Below the pieces are notes generated by a model that was given only the letters and a program-made list of their open reading frames with translations, did not search any database and had not been told where the DNA came from. Positions 30,083 through 39,461 of a stretch of 41,860 nt of DNA are shown here, one piece after another. A program made the position numbers and the translations under genes. The stretch's first letter is position 1. Each line of letters opens with the position of its first letter. This DNA comes from Candidatus Daviesbacteria bacterium RIFCSPHIGHO2_01_FULL_40_11. GTDB lineage: Bacteria; Patescibacteriota; Microgenomatia; Daviesbacterales; UBA10151. Location of the stretch: positions 1 through 41,860 of the forward strand of contig MFCP01000008.1 of NCBI GenBank assembly GCA_001776635.1, in the 5' to 3' direction.

Positions 30083-31810
30083 ATGTCGACCTTTGTATTT
30101 TTAGGCTTATTGCTTTATTCTTTATTCTTTATTCAACCTGTATTTGCAATTGTCAATCCTCTCTCCGTCCCCAACAACAAGTTCGGGATCCACATCATCC
30201 AAGCTACCCCGGATGAATCTTCACCTGCAGCTAAGCTTGTTAATACTAACGGTGATTGGGGTTATATTACAGTTTTGGTCGAAAGTAAAGATAGAGATCA
30301 TAATAAATGGCAGGAGTTTTTTGATGACCTGCGCCGCAGACACTTGATTCCGCTGGTAAGGCTGGCCACAGAGCCGCAGGGAAACTTCTGGAAAAGACCC
30401 TATGAGAAAGAGGAGGAGGCTTGGGCAGATTTTTTAGATGCCTTAAATTGGCCAACTAAAAACCGTTATGTCATCGTTTACAACGAACCTAATCACGGTA
30501 CAGAATGGGGAAATAAAGTTGACGCGTCCTCTTATGCAGAAGTTCTAGATAAGACTATTACAGCGCTTAAAAACAAAAATCAGGACTTTTTTGTACTCAA
30601 CGGCGGCTTTGATGCTTCCACCCCCTCCAAACCTCCCGTATATGAAGATCAGATAACATTCATGAAAGAAATGAATAAAGCCGTACCGGGTATTTTTGAA
30701 AAATTGGATGGCTGGGTTTCTCACTCATATCCTAACCCGGCTTTTGCAGGATCTCCGGCGGCAGTTGGCAGAGGAACCGTAAGGAATTGGTTTTGGGAAA
30801 TACAGCAACTTCGAAATCTTGGTGTAACTTATAACTTACCGGTTTTTATTACCGAAACAGGCTGGAAACATGCGGAAGGCTTAAGCTACGATTCAAGATT
30901 GCCGGACGAAGAAACTGTAGCCAAGTATTACAAAGAAGCCTTTGAGACTGCTTGGAATATCGACAGGATTGTTGCCATAACTCCTTTTTTATTAAGCTAT
31001 CAGGAGATTCCTTTTGACCACTTTTCGTTTAAAAAACCGACTGGAGAGAAACAAAATATCAAAGTCTTGAGTGTTGCGTATCCTGAGTATTATTCTATGT
31101 ATCAAACAATACAGGATTTACCAAAAGTTACAGGTAAACCTGTTCAGGAAACAAAAGCGCTTCTTACAAAAGGCGAAATTTATAGCTCCATAATTTCAGG
31201 GGAAATCTACACAATTTCTTTAACCTTTAAAAACATAGGCCAGTCAATCTGGAATGATAGGCAGGCAGTAATGCTGCAACCTATTGAGGGAGGTCAAAGC
31301 CTGGGGATTACAGGTATTGAGCTACCTGAAGATAGAAAGATTGAACCCGGACAGGAATACACATTTAATCTAAATTTAAAAGCGCCTCAAAGCGGAACGT
31401 ACAAAGTCTCCCTTAATTTGTTTGATGGGAGCAGTCAATTTGATTCAAAACCTGTTGAATTTACCACAGAAGTTAAGTCCCCTGTCGTTTTGAAAATTTT
31501 GTCTACGCTGGGATGGAAAAAAGATTTTGCAGGAGCTTATGTCCTAAGAATTAAAGGGATAAGCGAAGAAAGCGCCCAAGCCATAACCTTAAATACGGAA
31601 GGGGTATCTCCCGAAATAGAAGCAAGATATCTGCTGCCGGATTATTCCTTTGAGTTCTCTTTGGAAAAACCTTTTTACAAACCCAAAACTATAAATCAAA
31701 AAGTCTCTGCCGGAGTTAATACCTTAGATTTTGGGGTCCTGCAGCCGGATATATTTACCGCAATCTTACATCCTAAGGAGCTTTGGAAACTGTTACCTTT
31801 TTCTAATTAA
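30083..31810 (+). CDS. Secreted TIM-barrel glycoside hydrolase with Ig-like C terminus
   Basis: A signal peptide (residues 1-22) is followed by a clan GH-A type barrel. The acid/base Glu is in 'IVYNEPNHGTEWG' (about 135) and the nucleophile Glu in 'VFITETGWKH' (about 258), about 120 residues apart as in GH5/GH39-like enzymes. Residues about 360-470 form an Ig-like beta domain ('IYTISLTFKNIGQSIWNDRQAVML...GTYKVSLNLFDG'), and a second small beta region with 'LPDYSFEFSLEKPFYKP' ends the protein. It likely cuts a beta-linked polysaccharide outside the cell, perhaps of a host or of the organism itself; the family number cannot be fixed from sequence alone. It is divergent from ppsA, and TAAAAT lies 12 bases before the ATG. 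Confidence 0.8.
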   Translation: MSTFVFLGLLLYSLFFIQPVFAIVNPLSVPNNKFGIHIIQATPDESSPAAKLVNTNGDWGYITVLVESKDRDHNKWQEFFDDLRRRHLIPLVRLATEPQGNFWKRPYEKEEEAWADFLDALNWPTKNRYVIVYNEPNHGTEWGNKVDASSYAEVLDKTITALKNKNQDFFVLNGGFDASTPSKPPVYEDQITFMKEMNKAVPGIFEKLDGWVSHSYPNPAFAGSPAAVGRGTVRNWFWEIQQLRNLGVTYNLPVFITETGWKHAEGLSYDSRLPDEETVAKYYKEAFETAWNIDRIVAITPFLLSYQEIPFDHFSFKKPTGEKQNIKVLSVAYPEYYSMYQTIQDLPKVTGKPVQETKALLTKGEIYSSIISGEIYTISLTFKNIGQSIWNDRQAVMLQPIEGGQSLGITGIELPEDRKIEPGQEYTFNLNLKAPQSGTYKVSLNLFDGSSQFDSKPVEFTTEVKSPVVLKILSTLGWKKDFAGAYVLRIKGISEESAQAITLNTEGVSPEIEARYLLPDYSFEFSLEKPFYKPKTINQKVSAGVNTLDFGVLQPDIFTAILHPKELWKLLPFSN

Positions 31811-31988: not shown

Positions 31989-33050
31989 TTAGGGTGTCGC
32001 CTTTGGTTTTCCAGTGGTAATTAATATATCTACGTCCAGTGAGTCGAGATCATTCTGGATTGAAACATTATCAAACTCTTCCTGAAGCAGGGCAGCTATC
32101 TCATTCTGTAAATCTGGGGCCACTATAGGGGAGAAAATGACTATTGTATCTGTGGTAGATGCTCCTCCGGCATTATCTACTTCAATTTTTGACAATCCTA
32201 ACGGGATAAGAAGATTCTTAATTTTAACGGCCTGGCCCGCTATGCCCGTACCGTTTAAGATACTCACCCGCAACCGATCCTTAGCTAAAGTTGCAGACTC
32301 TGTGGAGGTTTCAGGTGCCGCAGACTCGGTGCTGATAGAGGTGGGTGAAGCTTCTAAAGTTGCCTCTGTTGTCTTAAGGTCTTTTTTAAATGCAGTTCGG
32401 GATTGCTTCAAATATATATTAATTAGAAAGAAACTTAGGATGATAACAATTGCGAGCAGAAACAAAATTATAGCTAAAGCCTGCTTGCTTTTACCTCCAT
32501 TGCTTAAGACAGAGCTGTCATTTAAAAAATTTGCGCTCTTAAGGAATCCCCTATCTTTGTATATCTTCCTTACAATATCTTCATTTAAGCTATTATCAGC
32601 GGAATAAAGAGACAGCGGCACCACCGCCAAAACCTTAAAACCCAACCCTTCCAAGGTTTCCAAAACTATTTCAAATAATTGTTTATTAACTGCAAAAAGA
32701 TAAATATTCGCATTTAATTTAACAGTCTTTTTAATTAGTTTCCCACTTTCAAGGGGTATCATTTCTGTAAAGTCTGCCAGTTTTTCATCCAGCAGTTTTA
32801 AGTCTGTGGCGGGAATTAATTTTTTAAAAATAATCTCCTCTGATAGCACCAGTAAAACCCTCTGGCTTTTTATGTTTTCAGCAGTAATAAAATCCGCAAT
32901 AAGCTTACTGTATTTAGCAGGGTTTATAATATCTTCTTCAGAAACAGTATCTTCCGGGAACTCAAGATGTTTTTCCTCGCCATTTATATAGAAGCTCAGG
33001 GAATTTTTTTGAATATAGATTGCCGAAGGGTACTTCTCAAAAAAAATCAT
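31989..33050 (-). CDS. PilM/GspL-like protein with membrane helix and LytR_C domain
   Basis: Residues 1-160 look like a degenerate PilM/GspL cytoplasmic domain ('SAIYIQKNSLSFYING', 'VLLVLSEEIIFKKLIPA', 'NIYLFAVNKQLFEIVLETLEGLGFKVLAVVPLSLYSA'), the actin-like scaffold that ties the pilus motor to the membrane. A single helix (about 197-217, 'ALAIILFLLAIVIILSFFLINIYL') follows. After a Ser/Thr/Ala-rich linker, residues about 255-350 form a LytR C-terminal (LytR_C) domain: 'RVSILNGTGIAGQAVKIKNLLIPLG'. This is the GspL layout (cytoplasm, helix, exterior) with an unusual outer domain. It is last in the pilus operon, and PilN and PilO are not in view. Confidence 0.75.
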   Translation of the reverse strand: MIFFEKYPSAIYIQKNSLSFYINGEEKHLEFPEDTVSEEDIINPAKYSKLIADFITAENIKSQRVLLVLSEEIIFKKLIPATDLKLLDEKLADFTEMIPLESGKLIKKTVKLNANIYLFAVNKQLFEIVLETLEGLGFKVLAVVPLSLYSADNSLNEDIVRKIYKDRGFLKSANFLNDSSVLSNGGKSKQALAIILFLLAIVIILSFFLINIYLKQSRTAFKKDLKTTEATLEASPTSISTESAAPETSTESATLAKDRLRVSILNGTGIAGQAVKIKNLLIPLGLSKIEVDNAGGASTTDTIVIFSPIVAPDLQNEIAALLQEEFDNVSIQNDLDSLDVDILITTGKPKATP

Positions 33051-33083: not shown

Positions 33084-33596
33084 TTATCTGGAGACTGAAA
33101 TTGTGGTGGTTCCGTCAGTATAGCAAGCCTTGACAGTTACTATGCCGTTCGAATCTCCTTGCACGGAATAACCGGTTTTAGCATCACTTCCTAAAGTTGT
33201 ATCCGGGTCAAAGGGCATAGTTTTAAGGTATTTGCTAACGTTTTGTGATCCAGTCATTAAATCAGTACAAGCTGCTGCTGTAATGGTACAGTCAGAATTG
33301 CTAATTGTGCATCCGGCAGCATCAGTCCCCAACTGCACTTCGGTTCCTGCAGCCGGCATGTTGGATGGATAAGTCCCTTTATTATCCACAATGGATTGGT
33401 GAATAGCGGATAAAATCGAATCCAAGTCCGATGCCCGTCTGGCATCCTTAGCATCTTTTAATCTCTGAGCGGGGTTTAAAGCTACAAATACCGACACAGC
33501 CAGTATTGCCACAATCGTTATGGCAACAAGTAATTCAATTAAGGTAAAGCCTTTTTGCTTACTCTGAAGTAATCTGAAATGGGCAGAAATTCTCAT
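33084..33596 (-). CDS. Type IV pilin-like protein, probable major pilin
   Basis: A class III prepilin leader ends in 'KQKGFTLIELLVAITIVAILAVSVFVALNPAQRL', with the cleavage Gly and Glu5 kept. The globular part has four Cys ('AGCTISNSDCTITAAACTDL...VKACYTDG') able to form two disulfides, and a 'KTGYSVQGDSNGIVTVKAC' end strand like Gram-positive PilA. It is exported and would polymerise into the fibre. The 52-base gap before it carries TTGACA (33634-33629, minus strand), 17 bases, TAAGCT, so it may have its own promoter as well as operon transcription, fitting a subunit needed in excess. Confidence 0.9.
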   Translation of the reverse strand: MRISAHFRLLQSKQKGFTLIELLVAITIVAILAVSVFVALNPAQRLKDAKDARRASDLDSILSAIHQSIVDNKGTYPSNMPAAGTEVQLGTDAAGCTISNSDCTITAAACTDLMTGSQNVSKYLKTMPFDPDTTLGSDAKTGYSVQGDSNGIVTVKACYTDGTTTISVSR

Positions 33597-33648: not shown

Positions 33649-34023
33649 CTAAATTTCTTTCCAGCTGGTTAAACTAATACCGGTAGGATTTCTGGTGAAA
33701 ACAACATTGACTTTTCTTTGGTAAGCAGCAGATAAAGAGGTAATAGTAATATCCCAGTTGGACGGGCCGCCTGAATTATAAGTAATTGAACAAGTCCCCT
33801 CTGGTCTGGTAATAGATGTTCCATTGTAGGAGCTGTTGGCCCGGATTTTCAGCATCACGTCTTCGACACATCCCTCAACAAAATTTAGATTATCTTCCCC
33901 TTTGTATAAAGATAGGGATGATTGAGCTTCGCCTATGGACAGGAGCGTGACAGTGGTCGCAATTGCCACCACTACTACGCTCAAGATTAGTACCGTTGTA
34001 ATTGCAACAAAGCCATCTTTCAT
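33649..34023 (-). CDS. PilX-like minor pilin
   Basis: A short positive start (MKDGFVAITTVLILSVVVVAIATTVTLLSIGEAQSSL) resembles the PilX group, where the cleavage Gly is followed by a hydrophobic helix with no Glu5 at the usual place. The body includes two Cys ('VEGCVEDVML', 'EGTCSITYN'), a pair typical of this family in Gram-positive and CPR pilus operons, and a strand-rich C terminus. It probably belongs to the tip/initiation complex with the other minor pilins. It starts 4 bases after the PilW-like gene. Confidence 0.8.
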   Translation of the reverse strand: MKDGFVAITTVLILSVVVVAIATTVTLLSIGEAQSSLSLYKGEDNLNFVEGCVEDVMLKIRANSSYNGTSITRPEGTCSITYNSGGPSNWDITITSLSAAYQRKVNVVFTRNPTGISLTSWKEI

Positions 34024-34027
34024 AATT

Positions 34028-34522
34028 CTAATTGCTACGCAGTTCTGCGCTTGATTCCGCTGCTATTGCCGGAGCATCATATTCTTGTCTGGAACCGGTG
34101 TAATTATCATCAATTGTGAAAGCAAACTGGATATGCTTAGTCTTGGCGTCTGCAGAACTGTAGTCAGAAAAAGTTAGGTTGGTTACATTTGTATCATTTG
34201 AGTTTAGATTAACCGGTGTTCCACCTGCTCCATACTTAATCCTGATTTTTCCCCCCGCATAGTCTATGACTGTGGTAGCATTGGTGTCCGTATTTAGATC
34301 TATGCTGGTTGCCGAAATGCTATTGATAGCATTTGCATTTCTGATTTCATATTTGATCCTTTCAGAAACATATCTTGCCTGAGATGAAACTTCTTGTTCC
34401 GCACTACTTTTGACCCCTCCTTCTATCACGTCCCACGCAAAAGGAATTAATGCCCCCATCACTATGGTAATAATAGCTATGTAAAGAATGAGCTCGATCA
34501 GTGTAAAACCATTTTTTTTCAT
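34028..34522 (-). CDS. PilW/PulJ-like minor pilin
   Basis: The prepilin leader is 'MKKNGFTLIELILYIAIITIVMGALIPFAWDVI', with Glu5 present. Then comes 'SAEQEVSSQARYVSERIKYEIRNANAINS', the PilW/GspJ pattern of a long helix and 'R-I-x-x-x-I-R-x-A'. The start at 34522 (MKKNGFTL), right after the stop of the upstream pilin gene (TAATATG), is chosen over 34600, since the 26 extra residues would precede a normal leader. A minor pilin of the tip complex. Confidence 0.88.
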   Translation of the reverse strand: MKKNGFTLIELILYIAIITIVMGALIPFAWDVIEGGVKSSAEQEVSSQARYVSERIKYEIRNANAINSISATSIDLNTDTNATTVIDYAGGKIRIKYGAGGTPVNLNSNDTNVTNLTFSDYSSADAKTKHIQFAFTIDDNYTGSRQEYDAPAIAAESSAELRSN

Positions 34523-34523
34523 A

Positions 34524-36263
34524 TTAAGGCGCTGATATATCAACCCTGAAATATACCGGTTCAGCAGAAATAGGGCCGGCCCAAATGGTATTTTCAGCAT
34601 TCCAAGAAGTCCCGCCTCCTGTTAAATGTGATTCCCAAATATCATCAGTTTTGGATGTTGCCGATTCATAAATCCCCGCAAATATTGCACCGGAGTTAAG
34701 ATCAGCTTTTAGCCTAATAAATGAGGTGTCATCGCTTCCGGTTAAAGTAGTGGCTGAACCCCAGGCAGATCCTGACCACTGCTTCTTGGAGATGGCGGCA
34801 CCATCTCCCCACAGGATCCATGCCTTTCCCGGATTAGCTGAATTTGTTTCCCAGACTAAATCAAAGTTCATGGAGGTAATATTTTCTACAGCCTTATCGT
34901 ACTCAGGATGCTGGGTATCAGTGTCCCAGGCACTACCAGACCATTTGCGGGTATTCAAGTCAGCTTTTGCATCCTGTACTCCATACATCAGTTCGTTGGA
35001 GTTGGGTCTTGTAACTAACTTTACCCAATTAGCCACACCACCTGAAGCTGGGATGTCCAAGAGGGTAGCAGCAGTTAAACTCGAGCTGTTCCAGATCCGA
35101 TAATACTGGTCAGTTGCAGTTGCATCACCCCAGATAAACATGGCTCTCCCAGATGTTTGCTCATAAGCCACATCAACTGCTTTTCTGTCGGCAGTGGACG
35201 CTGTAGCATCCCAGACTGTGGCAACACCCATATTGCTCCATCCGGAGCCGCTCCAAGTCATTCCATAGACATCGATGTTAGCATCCAGCATGATCATGGC
35301 AATTTCATTACTGGTACTTATCGGATTTTGAGCTGTTTCAATCCACCTAATAACACCTGTAGTAGGTGGTGCTGTAATAGTGGTTGCAGGAGTCCAATTA
35401 CTTCCATCCCAAATACGGTAGGCGGGATCAACAGATGTTGAGTTTGGGAGAAAAACAATCACTGAGCGGTCGTTACTTTTTTCATATTCAAGATCAAAAC
35501 TTCGATATACAGCAAATGTTGTTCCAACATTAGCCATTAGTGTTGGCGTCCCCCAGCTAGTACCATCCCAAACTTGAGCATAAATATTACCATTTGAATC
35601 TAGAGTAGCTAAAACAGCCTCATTTCTGGTACGTGAGCTTTTAAGAACAATATAATTAATGTTTCCTCCAACATTTTGAGCTGACGCCTCTGCGCTCCAA
35701 GCTGAACCATCCCATATTCGGTAGAAGGGAGTAGAAGTAGTTTTAGAATAAACCATCATAATAGGTCCACCGCTGACTATTGGTTTTCTCCAATCGGATA
35801 AATAACTAATTAAAGAAGTAGTTTCCGGCCTGGCAGAGTTAAAGTTCCAGGTAACTGTTGAGGTAATTTTTTTGGTGTCAGGGTCCAGAGCGCCTCCAGA
35901 GGAAACGACGTTTCCGCTGCCGTCACGATTAACGTTTTCTACTTTAACGGTTCTGACATAGTTATCGCTATTGTTGTGAGCTAAAATATTATTTGTTCCT
36001 TCTGTCTTAAACTCCCAGTAATTTCCCGGATTGTTTCTTTGTAATCCTACTGCATTAAAATTTGTTAAATTTGAATATCCCCTGTTCTTAATTGACCTTA
36101 CTGCCTCTGCTCCTTCTGCTGCAAATTGAGAAGCCACTGTATTTTCTGTGCCTAATCTGTTGGTATTATAACCTTGAACAACTGTCATAACCGCCCCGGT
36201 GGAAAATATCATGAAAATTGCCACTGCCAGGATCACTTCCAAAACCGAAAAGCCATTCTTCAT
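34524..36263 (-). CDS. Giant minor pilin with C-terminal beta-propeller-like repeats, candidate tip adhesin
   Basis: Residues 1-160 are a pilin: leader 'MKNGFSVLEVILAVAIFMIFSTGAVMTVVQ', then the PilV/GspI-like 'AAEGAEAVRSIKNRGYSNL'. From about 165 the protein becomes eight repeats of about 50 residues, each ending in W-x-G-x-x-W: 'RIWDGSAWS' (about 184), 'QVWDGTSWG' (232), 'RIWDGSNWT' (284), 'MTWSGSGWS' (337), 'RIWNSSS' (390), 'RKWSGSAWD' (441), 'KQWSGSAWG' (495), and a final one near 543. Even spacing suggests one closed eight-bladed propeller. With 579 residues it is three to four times a normal minor pilin. A place at the fibre tip as a binding head is inferred by analogy with PilY1/PilC adhesins. 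Confidence 0.85.
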   Translation of the reverse strand: MKNGFSVLEVILAVAIFMIFSTGAVMTVVQGYNTNRLGTENTVASQFAAEGAEAVRSIKNRGYSNLTNFNAVGLQRNNPGNYWEFKTEGTNNILAHNNSDNYVRTVKVENVNRDGSGNVVSSGGALDPDTKKITSTVTWNFNSARPETTSLISYLSDWRKPIVSGGPIMMVYSKTTSTPFYRIWDGSAWSAEASAQNVGGNINYIVLKSSRTRNEAVLATLDSNGNIYAQVWDGTSWGTPTLMANVGTTFAVYRSFDLEYEKSNDRSVIVFLPNSTSVDPAYRIWDGSNWTPATTITAPPTTGVIRWIETAQNPISTSNEIAMIMLDANIDVYGMTWSGSGWSNMGVATVWDATASTADRKAVDVAYEQTSGRAMFIWGDATATDQYYRIWNSSSLTAATLLDIPASGGVANWVKLVTRPNSNELMYGVQDAKADLNTRKWSGSAWDTDTQHPEYDKAVENITSMNFDLVWETNSANPGKAWILWGDGAAISKKQWSGSAWGSATTLTGSDDTSFIRLKADLNSGAIFAGIYESATSKTDDIWESHLTGGGTSWNAENTIWAGPISAEPVYFRVDISAP

Positions 36264-36700
36264 CTGCTGACCACTCCTTGAGAATTGATGGTGACAGTCT
36301 TGCTGTTGCTGCCGGAGCTGATGGTAATAGTGGCAGTGACAGGCGTAGGCAAACCGGTGACGCGGGCGTAGTCAATGTCAGAAATGCCGCTTACAGAAAC
36401 CGCCGGATTGACGCTGAATTCTTCATCAAAAGCAGGATCCCGGCCGGCAAAGCTTAGGCCTTTATATAAAGTAATGGTGTTTGAACTAAAATTTACTGAC
36501 CAGGTACTGCCCTGCTTTCCCGCCATGGCGTAAGTTTGGGCTTTCCTTAAACTGCCGCTAAGCTCGTCCACAGTGTTATCTACCGCATTTTGCACTAAAA
36601 ACCTGGCAAAGAAAGGAGAAGAAAGCAAGGCTATAAAAGAAATTATAGCTATGACCAAAATCAGCTCAATTAGTGTAAAACCATTATTCTTACGTTGCAT
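36260..36700 (-). CDS. GspH/FimT-like minor pilin
   Basis: The leader 'MQRKNNGFTLIELILVIAIISFIALLSSPFFARFLVQNAV' has Glu5, followed by 'VDELSGSLRKAQTYAMAGKQGSTWSVNF', the GspH/FimT block. The C-terminal region is beta-rich, 'TATITISSGSNSKTVTINSQGVVSR', as in GspH. A minor pilin of the initiation complex. Its stop overlaps the start of the giant pilin gene by 4 bases, so they are translated together. Confidence 0.9.
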   Translation of the reverse strand: MQRKNNGFTLIELILVIAIISFIALLSSPFFARFLVQNAVDNTVDELSGSLRKAQTYAMAGKQGSTWSVNFSSNTITLYKGLSFAGRDPAFDEEFSVNPAVSVSGISDIDYARVTGLPTPVTATITISSGSNSKTVTINSQGVVSR

Positions 36701-36701
36701 C

Positions 36702-37778
36702 TTATCTCCTGATGCCGCCTGTAAGCTGATAAATCGGTGAAATAATGGCCAAGGATACCAAAGCTACCGCCACTCCGATCACCAGCAGCAAAACCGGCTC
36801 CAAAACATTGGATAAATTCCTGGTAGTATCGTCTACATCATCTTCAAAAAAATCTCCCATATAGATAAACACATCCTCAAGCTTACCGGTATCCTCCCCC
36901 ACCCCGATCATCTTTGGTACAATGGTGGGAATAAAGGGGTATTTGTTGCTTGACAGCTCCGTAGATAATTTTTTGCCCTTTTCCATGGTTTTTAAAAGGT
37001 TGCCGAAATAGCTTTTGTAAATCAGGTTGTCGGTCGCGTTAAATTGAGTTCTAAGCGAATCAGTGATAGTCAATCCGCTCTTTAGCATCACCCCCATATT
37101 CCGGCAAAAAGAGGCCATTTCAATATTCTGGTTAAGGCTGCCGATCAGCGGTAAGGACACAAGCATCTTATGCCATTTAGGCTTTATAAAAGAGGTCCTT
37201 AGCAGGAAAGAAACCAGGACGGCAGACCCAAAAAAGGCCGCCACGATGATTGTTCCGTAGCCTTTCATCAGGTTGGCGATGTACAGAAGAATTTTGGTAC
37301 TGAGGGGCAGTTCTACCTCCAGTGAGTTGAAAAGATCAACCAGTTTAGGCAGGACAAAAAGCGACATAAACATGCCCATGATGACAGTAGCGGCTAAAAT
37401 AAGCTTTGGGTAAAGTATTGCACCCTGGATTTTTTTATTAAAGTCGTAACTTTTTTTTAGCTGCTGTGCCAAATACTCTAAAGTAACCTCTAGGCTTCCG
37501 GATTTTTCCCCTATCCCGATTAGGCTGATATACAAAGAAGAAAATACACTTTTCTGTTTGGCAAGCGAAGATTCCAGTGTTTGGCCGTTTTCAACATCAG
37601 CTTGGATTTTACCTAGAATCTCTTTAAAAGTGATATTTTTGGTTTGATCCTTGAGTGTGGTAATTGATTCAGCGAGGGGAATACCGCTTTTTAGCATGAC
37701 TGATAAATGCTTGGTAAAAAACAAAATATCCAGCGGGCTGACCCGCAATAATATATGGGTTATGGAAGGCAGTTTCAT
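36702..37778 (-). CDS. pilC: Type IV pilus inner-membrane platform protein PilC
   Basis: The platform protein that couples ATPase movement to pilin extraction. Two homologous T2SSF domains are seen: 'FTKHLSVMLKSGIPLAESITTLKDQT' to 'GEKSGSLEVTLEYLAQQL' and 'FCRNMGVMLKSGLTITDSL' to 'GVGEDTGKLEDVFIYMGDFFEDDVDDTTRNLSNVLEPVLLLVIGV'. Each is followed by membrane helices, three in all. The 358 residues are slightly short of the common 400, with the missing part at the N terminus. The gene lies 6 bases after pilB and one base before the GspH-like pilin. Confidence 0.96.
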   Translation of the reverse strand: MKLPSITHILLRVSPLDILFFTKHLSVMLKSGIPLAESITTLKDQTKNITFKEILGKIQADVENGQTLESSLAKQKSVFSSLYISLIGIGEKSGSLEVTLEYLAQQLKKSYDFNKKIQGAILYPKLILAATVIMGMFMSLFVLPKLVDLFNSLEVELPLSTKILLYIANLMKGYGTIIVAAFFGSAVLVSFLLRTSFIKPKWHKMLVSLPLIGSLNQNIEMASFCRNMGVMLKSGLTITDSLRTQFNATDNLIYKSYFGNLLKTMEKGKKLSTELSSNKYPFIPTIVPKMIGVGEDTGKLEDVFIYMGDFFEDDVDDTTRNLSNVLEPVLLLVIGVAVALVSLAIISPIYQLTGGIRR

Positions 37779-37784
37779 TTTAAT

Positions 37785-39461
37785 CTAGGATTCTTTTGTG
37801 ACTCTCATGACTTCTTCAATAGTAGTTATCCCCAACTGGATTTTATCCAGGCCGTCCTCCATCATAGTAGCCATACCCTCCTCGATGGCTTTTTTAGCTA
37901 TCATGTCCGAATCAGCTTTTTGGGTAATCAATTTCTTGATTTCTTCGCTTAATTCAAGGATCTCAAAAATGCCGATCCTGCCGCTATATCCGGTAGTATG
38001 GCAGACTTCACACCCGGTGCCACCGTATACCCTGATTTCTTTGGTGTCACCAAAGTGTTTTTTTACCACATCGGCGGCGAATAACTTGGCCATTTCATCG
38101 AAGGTTTTGATGGATGAAGCCTTGCATTTTTCGCAAATTTTCCTGACCAGCCTTTGGCCAATAATGATATTGACTGTCGAGGCAACCAGAAACGGCTCAA
38201 TACCCATATCAATCAACCTGGGTAAGGCTGTGGCTGCATCATTGGTATGCAAGGTGGATAAAACCAGATGTCCGGTCATAGCTGAGTTGATGGCAATATC
38301 TGAAGTTTCACCGTCCCTAATTTCGCCCACATAAATAATATCTGGGTCCTGCCTTAGGATTGACCTTAAGCCTTCCGCAAAAGTCAAGTTCGTCTTGGGG
38401 TTAACCTGAATTTGGTTAATGCCTCCGATATCATATTCCACAGGGTCTTCTATGGTGGCAATATTTTTCTCCCTGGTATTAAGAATTTTTAAGATGGCAT
38501 AAATCGTCGTAGTCTTACCAGATCCGGTTGGCCCGGTCGAAAGCACCATCCCAAAAGGTTTGGTAAAACCAGCTTTGACCTTTTTCATATCCTGTTCGTC
38601 CATGCCCAGGTCAGTCAAACCAAATTGCCGGTATCTGGAGGTCAGTAGTCTTAACACAGCTTTTTCCCCCTCCACTATCGGGACAATTGAAACCCGGACA
38701 TCCAGTTCTTCTTCTTTCAGCTTGATTTGCAGCTTGCCATCCTGGGCGCTTAAGTGTTCATCTGTCCTTAGCCTTGATAGAACCTTGATTCTGGTGATTA
38801 CCTGGTCGTGCAGGTTAATAGGCAAAGTCAGTACATCGTGCAAAATACCGTCTATCCTAAACCTGACAAGCGATTTGCCCTCTTCCGGTTCAATATGGAT
38901 GTCTGATGCTTTATTTTCGTAGGCATACTCGATTAAGGTATCTACCATCTCTGAAATAGGCGCTTCGGAGTCTGATTTACCTGCCTGGTCAACCTGTTGC
39001 TTTAAAAGTTCGTCAAAAGTTTTTTGGATTTCTTTTTTGTAAAGGTTGAGGGTCTCTTTGATATCGTGGGGAGTCGCAAAATAAACTTCTACTTTCCGGC
39101 CGGTTTTTTTGGTAATCAGACTTTCAAATTCCTGGCTGCGGGATTTTGAGGTAGCAATCTTTAAATTATCATCAGTTTTGCCAAAGACTATGGTTTGCTG
39201 CGACCTGGCCACTGATTCCGGAATAGTCTGTAGCAAGTTTTGGGGGATCGGAGTTTTATTAAGCACCACAAAAGGCAATTTCAAATTATCAGCGATGAGC
39301 CTACCCAGGTTTTCATCCGTTATCAGATCGCTCTTTATCAGAGCATCATAAAAAGGAATTTTTTCAACCTCTGTCTGATCATGGATCTTTTTTAATTCTT
39401 CTGCCGAAAGTATTTCGTTTTGCAGTAAGAGGTTGTATAAATCCTTATCAGATATAACCAT
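37785..39461 (-). CDS. pilB: Type IV pilus assembly ATPase PilB
   Basis: The hexameric ATPase that drives pilus extension at the cytoplasmic face. The N-terminal GSPII_E domain (about 1-150) has 'LLLQNEILSAEEL'. The ATPase core has Walker A 'GPTGSGKTTTIYAIL' (about 306-320), the Asp box 'IATIEDPVEY', Walker B 'QDPDIIYVGEIRDGET' and the His box 'MTGHLVLSTLHTNDA'. A four-Cys zinc module, 'CEKC...CEVC', lies near the C terminus, typical of PilB/GspE and absent from the retraction ATPase PilT. No pilT is in view. It follows the receiver genes and leads the pilus structural genes. Confidence 0.97.
   Translation of the reverse strand: MVISDKDLYNLLLQNEILSAEELKKIHDQTEVEKIPFYDALIKSDLITDENLGRLIADNLKLPFVVLNKTPIPQNLLQTIPESVARSQQTIVFGKTDDNLKIATSKSRSQEFESLITKKTGRKVEVYFATPHDIKETLNLYKKEIQKTFDELLKQQVDQAGKSDSEAPISEMVDTLIEYAYENKASDIHIEPEEGKSLVRFRIDGILHDVLTLPINLHDQVITRIKVLSRLRTDEHLSAQDGKLQIKLKEEELDVRVSIVPIVEGEKAVLRLLTSRYRQFGLTDLGMDEQDMKKVKAGFTKPFGMVLSTGPTGSGKTTTIYAILKILNTREKNIATIEDPVEYDIGGINQIQVNPKTNLTFAEGLRSILRQDPDIIYVGEIRDGETSDIAINSAMTGHLVLSTLHTNDAATALPRLIDMGIEPFLVASTVNIIIGQRLVRKICEKCKASSIKTFDEMAKLFAADVVKKHFGDTKEIRVYGGTGCEVCHTTGYSGRIGIFEILELSEEIKKLITQKADSDMIAKKAIEEGMATMMEDGLDKIQLGITTIEEVMRVTKES

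Follow-up and report, generated by a model that had tools for sequence, protein, structure and literature searches.

How most Patescibacteria recognise their partners is the question on which this locus bears: in this ultrasmall bacterium a minor pilin gene carries a large C-terminal repeat module, and the partner cell or surface to which the pilus attaches may depend on what fills this gene slot. The window is the whole stretch of 41,860 nucleotides analysed from Candidatus Daviesbacteria bacterium RIFCSPHIGHO2_01_FULL_40_11 (contig MFCP01000008.1), the genome of which is 964 kb and 95% complete. The fusion pilin gene (34524..36263, minus strand) is an intact ORF of 579 aa with an ATG start and no internal stops; an earlier note on this sequence had not given the strand. 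The preferred reading, to which a probability of about two in three is assigned, is that it encodes a tip-displayed, probably glycan-binding, eight-bladed lectin-type propeller adhesin on a modular minor pilin of an accessory pilus.

The N-terminal head (residues 1 to about 156; 35796..36263, minus strand) was delimited from the DSSP assignment and pLDDT of the model and from a weak TIGR02523 match. Its leader, MKNG/FSVLE, is short, ends in Gly, is followed by a hydrophobic helix and has Glu5, as in class III signal peptides; this agrees with the prepilin leader and minor-pilin start described earlier. The N_methyl match is weak (E-value: 0.005, below cut-off), as is that of TIGR02523 (PilV; E-value: 0.037) on residues 3-139, which spans profile positions 2-138 of 139 and scores 14.5 bits against a cut-off of 52.2. 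In position, the gene fits the I subunit (PilV/GspI) of the HIJK tip complex: it lies between the H and J/K pilins, in the order H-V-W-X, both here and in about 20 relatives. In the AlphaFold model of the full protein (23 aligned sequences; pLDDT 80.9, pTM 0.70), helix 7-61 and a pilin beta-sheet extending to residue 156 are followed by a low-confidence linker (residues 157-167; 35763..35795, minus strand; pLDDT <50 at 160-165) and then by regular four-strand units. An N-terminal pilin module, a short linker and a non-pilin module are the parts of a modular pilin as defined by Raynaud (2021).

The fusion pilin is encoded on the minus strand in an operon with the order GspE-GspF-GspH-fusion pilin-PilW-PilX-PilA. 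The first two genes encode a GspE/PilB-type extension ATPase (37785..39461; PF00437 E-value: 1e-128) and a GspF/PilC platform protein (36702..37778; PF00482 E-value: 2e-50). A GspH/FimU-like minor pilin in the H position (36260..36700) overlaps the fusion gene by 4 nt (ATGA), and the PilW-like minor pilin in the J position (34028..34522) starts 1 nt past the fusion gene stop. The K position is occupied by a PilX-like minor pilin (33649..34023; MKDGFVAITTV), which has no Glu5 and matched no family in the HMM searches. The last gene encodes a PilA-like pilin (33084..33596; N_methyl E-value: 1e-10) that is probably the major pilin. The sequences and family searches bear out the GspH-, PilW- and PilX-like neighbours, a tip-type set, named in the earlier note. 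By analogy, the operon order is that of the H-I-J-K minor pilins, of which the tip complex of other type IV filaments is built, with a subunit without Glu5 as its cap (PMC10191384); the PilX-like protein resembles that capping subunit in its lack of Glu5. Beside PilA lies a gene (31989-33050, minus strand) for a 353-aa protein that has a single hydrophobic stretch, a LytR_C domain and an unassigned N-terminal region of 150 aa; a PilM-like identity for it was not supported, and a LytR_C protein of this kind adjoins the operon in several relatives too. Near the operon on the opposite strand (30083-31810, plus strand) is a gene for a 575-aa secreted-looking protein with weak glycoside hydrolase matches.

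There are two type IV pilus loci in this genome, and PilT is found in just one of them, which is not the fusion pilin locus. The second locus holds PilB, PilT, PilC and PilD-like genes together with PilMNO-like genes (the names were given by inspection, except for the ATPases). This arrangement bears on a different explanation, in which the fusion pilin belongs to a pilus for DNA uptake and the module aids DNA capture or surface anchoring. The H pilin scores best with the competence pilin ComGD (E-value: 9e-11, below its cut-off) and the genome has ComEC, as that explanation would expect. However, the second locus, with its PilT, could serve uptake, a DNA-binding signature was not seen, and the C-terminal module is far more variable than the head, unlike what general DNA binding would need. 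DNA uptake is therefore considered improbable, and attachment remains the preferred function.

The module that follows the linker comprises 412 residues. It contains six strict W-x-G-x-x-W motifs (residues 184, 232, 285, 337, 441 and 496), and a seventh, WNSSSL at residue 391, is degenerate. In 20,000 shuffles of the module, the mean number of motifs was 0.09 and the maximum was 3, compared with the six observed. An eighth blade has no W-x-G-x-x-W motif, yet is present in both sequence and model. The autocorrelation of the module peaks near 106 and 211 residues, which indicates a repeat unit of about 106 residues that is made of two dissimilar blades, A and B, and is present four times. The earlier note counted about eight W-x-G-x-x-W repeats spaced 48-54 residues apart; the number agrees with that of the blades, but the strict motifs number six, the spacing is 48-55 residues and the true unit is the two-blade pair.

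The blades, all on the minus strand, are arranged as follows. The module opens with a partial type-B blade that lacks the first strand (residues 168-200; 35664..35762) and was typed with blade HMMs (over 21 relatives, a mean of 21.9 bits for type B against 2.4 for type A). From the model and motif pattern, it is followed by A1 (residues 201-254; 35502..35663), B1 (255-303; 35355..35501), A2 (304-360; 35184..35354), B2 with the degenerate motif (361-408; 35040..35183), A3 (409-464; 34872..35039), B3 (465-510; 34734..34871) and A4 (511-566; 34566..34733), the blade without a strict motif. The C-terminal segment (residues 567-579; 34527..34565), modelled as a strand at 574-577, would complete the first blade as a velcro strand. 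In most relatives the last seven residues resemble strand A of type B (median shuffle fraction 0.033, 20 relatives); for this protein alone the match is not significant (0.105), and adding the strand did not raise the blade HMM scores. The type-B partial blade and the likeness of the C-terminal strand together point to a ring closed by the C-terminus. The module thus apparently consists of eight blades, predicted as four two-blade units closed by the last strand.

Both AlphaFold models are propellers, as the earlier note had anticipated. The propeller alone (47 aligned sequences) was modelled with a pLDDT of 85.2 and a pTM of 0.89, and the prediction is of a closed ring of four-stranded blades in which the partial first blade is joined by the C-terminal strand. 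In Foldseek searches of the PDB, the top 21 matches with one model and the top 22 with the other are seven-bladed sugar-binding lectins of the PLL/PHL/BP39L type, mostly Photorhabdus PLL/PHL (E-values: 1e-12 to 1e-9; TMq 0.54-0.59). AAL/RSL-type fucose lectins rank below these. Propellers resemble one another, and more than 600 PDB entries matched at E <= 0.001. Searches of the module against the sequences of solved structures (phmmer, whole-domain profiles and blade-level profiles, with one blade set including one row with mistyped N-terminal residues) returned nothing credible, and neither sequence nor profile searches placed the module in the PLL/PHL family. Its eight units, counted by sequence and strand pattern, also differ from the seven blades of that family. 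With no sequence relation and seven-bladed targets, kinship to these lectins is a likeness of fold and not membership. No Pfam family was found for the module among the 47 members scanned, and the locus adds a propeller family without a Pfam entry. A DUF2510 match (E-value: 0.011, below cut-off) was short and W-rich and was set aside as due to chance. The fusion pilin does not match the PilY1 family (PF05567); a genome scan for PF05567 was also silent, as were the positive controls of the same scan.

Glycan binding is suggested by the predicted fold. In PHL (PMC5584973) and PLL3 (PMC6943638), fucose, galactose or O-methyl sugars are held between the blades, and the pockets take Met side chains as well. 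There is a minority chance that the protein is a tip adhesin with a different kind of ligand, namely a protein, a peptide or a mineral surface. The generic nature of the propeller fold, the missing sequence link to PLL-type lectins and the acceptance of Met side chains by the PLL3 and PHL pockets all agree with such a ligand. So does the fact that long proteins other than pilins carry the domain in Elusimicrobia, Geobacter, Nitrospirae and others. Against it, lectins ranked first by a wide margin with both models. It is very improbable that the propeller is a pilus-borne enzyme, sialidase-like or otherwise glycan-cleaving: sialidases and one glycoside hydrolase do occur among the later Foldseek matches, but they rank below the lectins, and no Pfam enzyme family was found in any of the 47 members. 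A glycan thus remains the preferred ligand.

A search for the same fusion in other Patescibacteria, suggested in the earlier note, found it on about 20 further contigs. Homologues of the head or module are present in 39 of 95 relatives, and module homologues in 24 of 374 genomes of the class. About 20 of the 43 loci with named records repeat the arrangement GspE-GspF-GspH-fusion-PilW-PilX; these belong to the Roizman-, Collier-, Shapiro-, Woese-, Davies-, Falkow- and Buchananbacteria. In Uhr- and Peregrinibacteria, the pilus genes were detected in part. A genome of the same family encodes a fusion that is 70% identical, so the expectation that close relatives share the gene is upheld at this level; the locus is unevenly distributed within the genus, with a clear PilW match in three of 12 genomes. 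That the fusion is an assembly artefact was rejected, as it recurs intact in over 20 genomes. A scan of the genome collection with the single protein found nothing. Outside these operons, the propeller domain stands at the start of long proteins from MAGs of Acidobacteria, Geobacter and Nitrospirae (L102, L103 and L105), two of which have CxxCH-like motifs at their ends and are possibly multihaem. In Elusimicrobia (L081-L087, L090, L092, L093, L104 and L107) it lies inside very long repeat-rich proteins of about 2,950 aa or more. A Planctomycetota ORF (L108) begins like a pilin and is weakly similar to the module.

The head and the module differ in their conservation. Between this protein (P0001) and its same-genus homologue, identity is 66% in the head and 22% in the propeller. 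At other loci, the slot after GspF/GspH is filled by heads with LVIVD repeats (Pfam, above cut-off; L015, L016, L017, L020, L023 and L026), V-type heads with a C-terminal module that matches no Pfam family (L008 and L010) or heads with a short Cys-rich tail (L014, L022, L025 and L027). PilW is recognised downstream in L008, L010, L014, L015, L022 and L025. It was not recognised in the majority of the LVIVD loci, which are either truncated or more distant. In the head tree, a well-supported, starred clade (98) of eight rows holds the divergent propeller subtypes W1, W2 and W3 as well as an unassigned module. LVIVD repeats or a Cys-rich tail are found on more distant heads, and L015, with LVIVD, falls among W-type heads (95, starred). 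The claim of module exchange rests, in this tree, on that clade and L015 alone; the total of 17 module changes is inflated because the automatic labels put some W3 members (L038, L040, L067 and L100) under "other". In the tree of modules, copies borne on pilins are interspersed with other copies, and at least four changes are forced by starred branches. Part of the difference between W1, W2 and W3 could be fast divergence instead of replacement, but the LVIVD and unassigned modules are not explicable in this way. As far as these sequences tell, the V/I slot is modular: the pilin head is kept and the end module is exchanged between lineages.

A related mechanism is known from IncI2 plasmids, in which a shufflon switches the C-terminal adhesins of PilV (PMC9045228). 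Fast DNA inversion of this kind within one genome would follow the same logic, but here it is largely refuted and its likelihood is close to nil: the genome holds a single propeller copy, no inverted repeats lie near the gene and PilW starts directly downstream. Exchange between lineages is thus preferred to switching within a cell. A broader proposal is put forward tentatively, at somewhat less than even odds: in Patescibacteria at large, the V/I position of a conserved operon for the pilus tip may be a docking slot into which different modules for receptor binding have been swapped, among them several subtypes of lectin-like propeller and LVIVD propellers. The slot would then be a main determinant of partner range, comparable to phage tail fibres or the PilV shufflon, but chromosomal and at the level of lineages. 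One recognisable slot with a fixed pilin and a changing binding module is a direct, computable candidate for partner specificity in this group, and ligands could be sought with purified modules, with no need to culture the organisms.

The mechanism proposed for the fusion pilin is as follows. The PilV/GspI-like head would be cleaved by prepilin peptidase, as its leader suggests, and would then enter the H-I-J-K minor-pilin complex and be assembled into the filament. This complex would initiate and cap the type IV pilus. As a module of this size could hardly be packed inside the fibre, it would be displayed at the tip, in keeping with the HIJK position of its head. Glycans would probably be bound between the blades, and the pilus, encoded by an accessory locus that has no PilT of its own, would hold the cell to a surface or to a partner cell. 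Since the head is conserved and the module is exchanged between lineages, the slot would set binding specificity.

Attachment to a partner or host is proposed by analogy with three systems, Nanosynbacter lyticus TM7x PilX2, Streptococcus sanguinis PilC and IncI PilV. TM7x, as an analogue, is the strongest precedent: its PilT-less pilus (T4P-2) and the propeller pilin PilX2 contribute to host binding, which is roughly halved by loss of PilX2 (PMC12206443). In both organisms a beta-propeller is covalently attached at the C-terminus of a minor pilin, the pilin has a proposed role as adhesin, and a machinery without PilT accompanies a second one bearing PilT. The covalent joining of propeller and pilin, which the earlier note took as the distinguishing feature, is therefore not particular to this locus, and modular pilins are in any case widespread, Patescibacteria included (PMC8179133). 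PilX2 differs in being an X/K-type pilin without a predicted PilD leader and in having a seven-bladed RCC1 propeller (PMC12206443), whereas the protein described here is a V/I-type pilin with a canonical leader and an eight-bladed lectin-like propeller, encoded in one compact operon. The function of PilX2 was shown by deletion; that of the fusion pilin is deduced.

In S. sanguinis, PilB and PilC likewise have functional modules grafted on minor pilins and shown at the tip, and the PilC module is a proven lectin (PMC8179133, PMC9934059). These modules are vWA or ConA-like and not propellers, and the I-type subunit there, PilA, has no module. IncI PilV shares a constant head and an exchangeable C-terminal adhesin, the exchange of which changes recipient affinity (PMC9045228), but it belongs to a type IVb conjugative pilus and is exchanged by in-cell DNA inversion, which was not seen here. 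The PLL/PHL lectins of Photorhabdus (PLL3: PMC6943638; PHL: PMC5584973), the closest solved fold, are built from four-stranded repeats named W-motifs, but are free soluble proteins. PilY1/PilC tip adhesins also present a propeller at the pilus tip, but on a separate, non-pilin protein. Published work thus already includes modular pilins, pilins with a lectin module and, in a Patescibacterium, a pilin with a propeller. Relative to the open literature searched, the new elements are a family of eight-bladed lectin-like propellers on the V/I pilin, the occurrence of this family in many groups of Patescibacteria in a fixed gene order and module exchange at the slot. The other type IV pilus locus of this genome encodes a 616-aa PilX-like protein (L065:3572-5422, minus strand), which has a large C-terminal part and resembles TM7x PilX1 in this.
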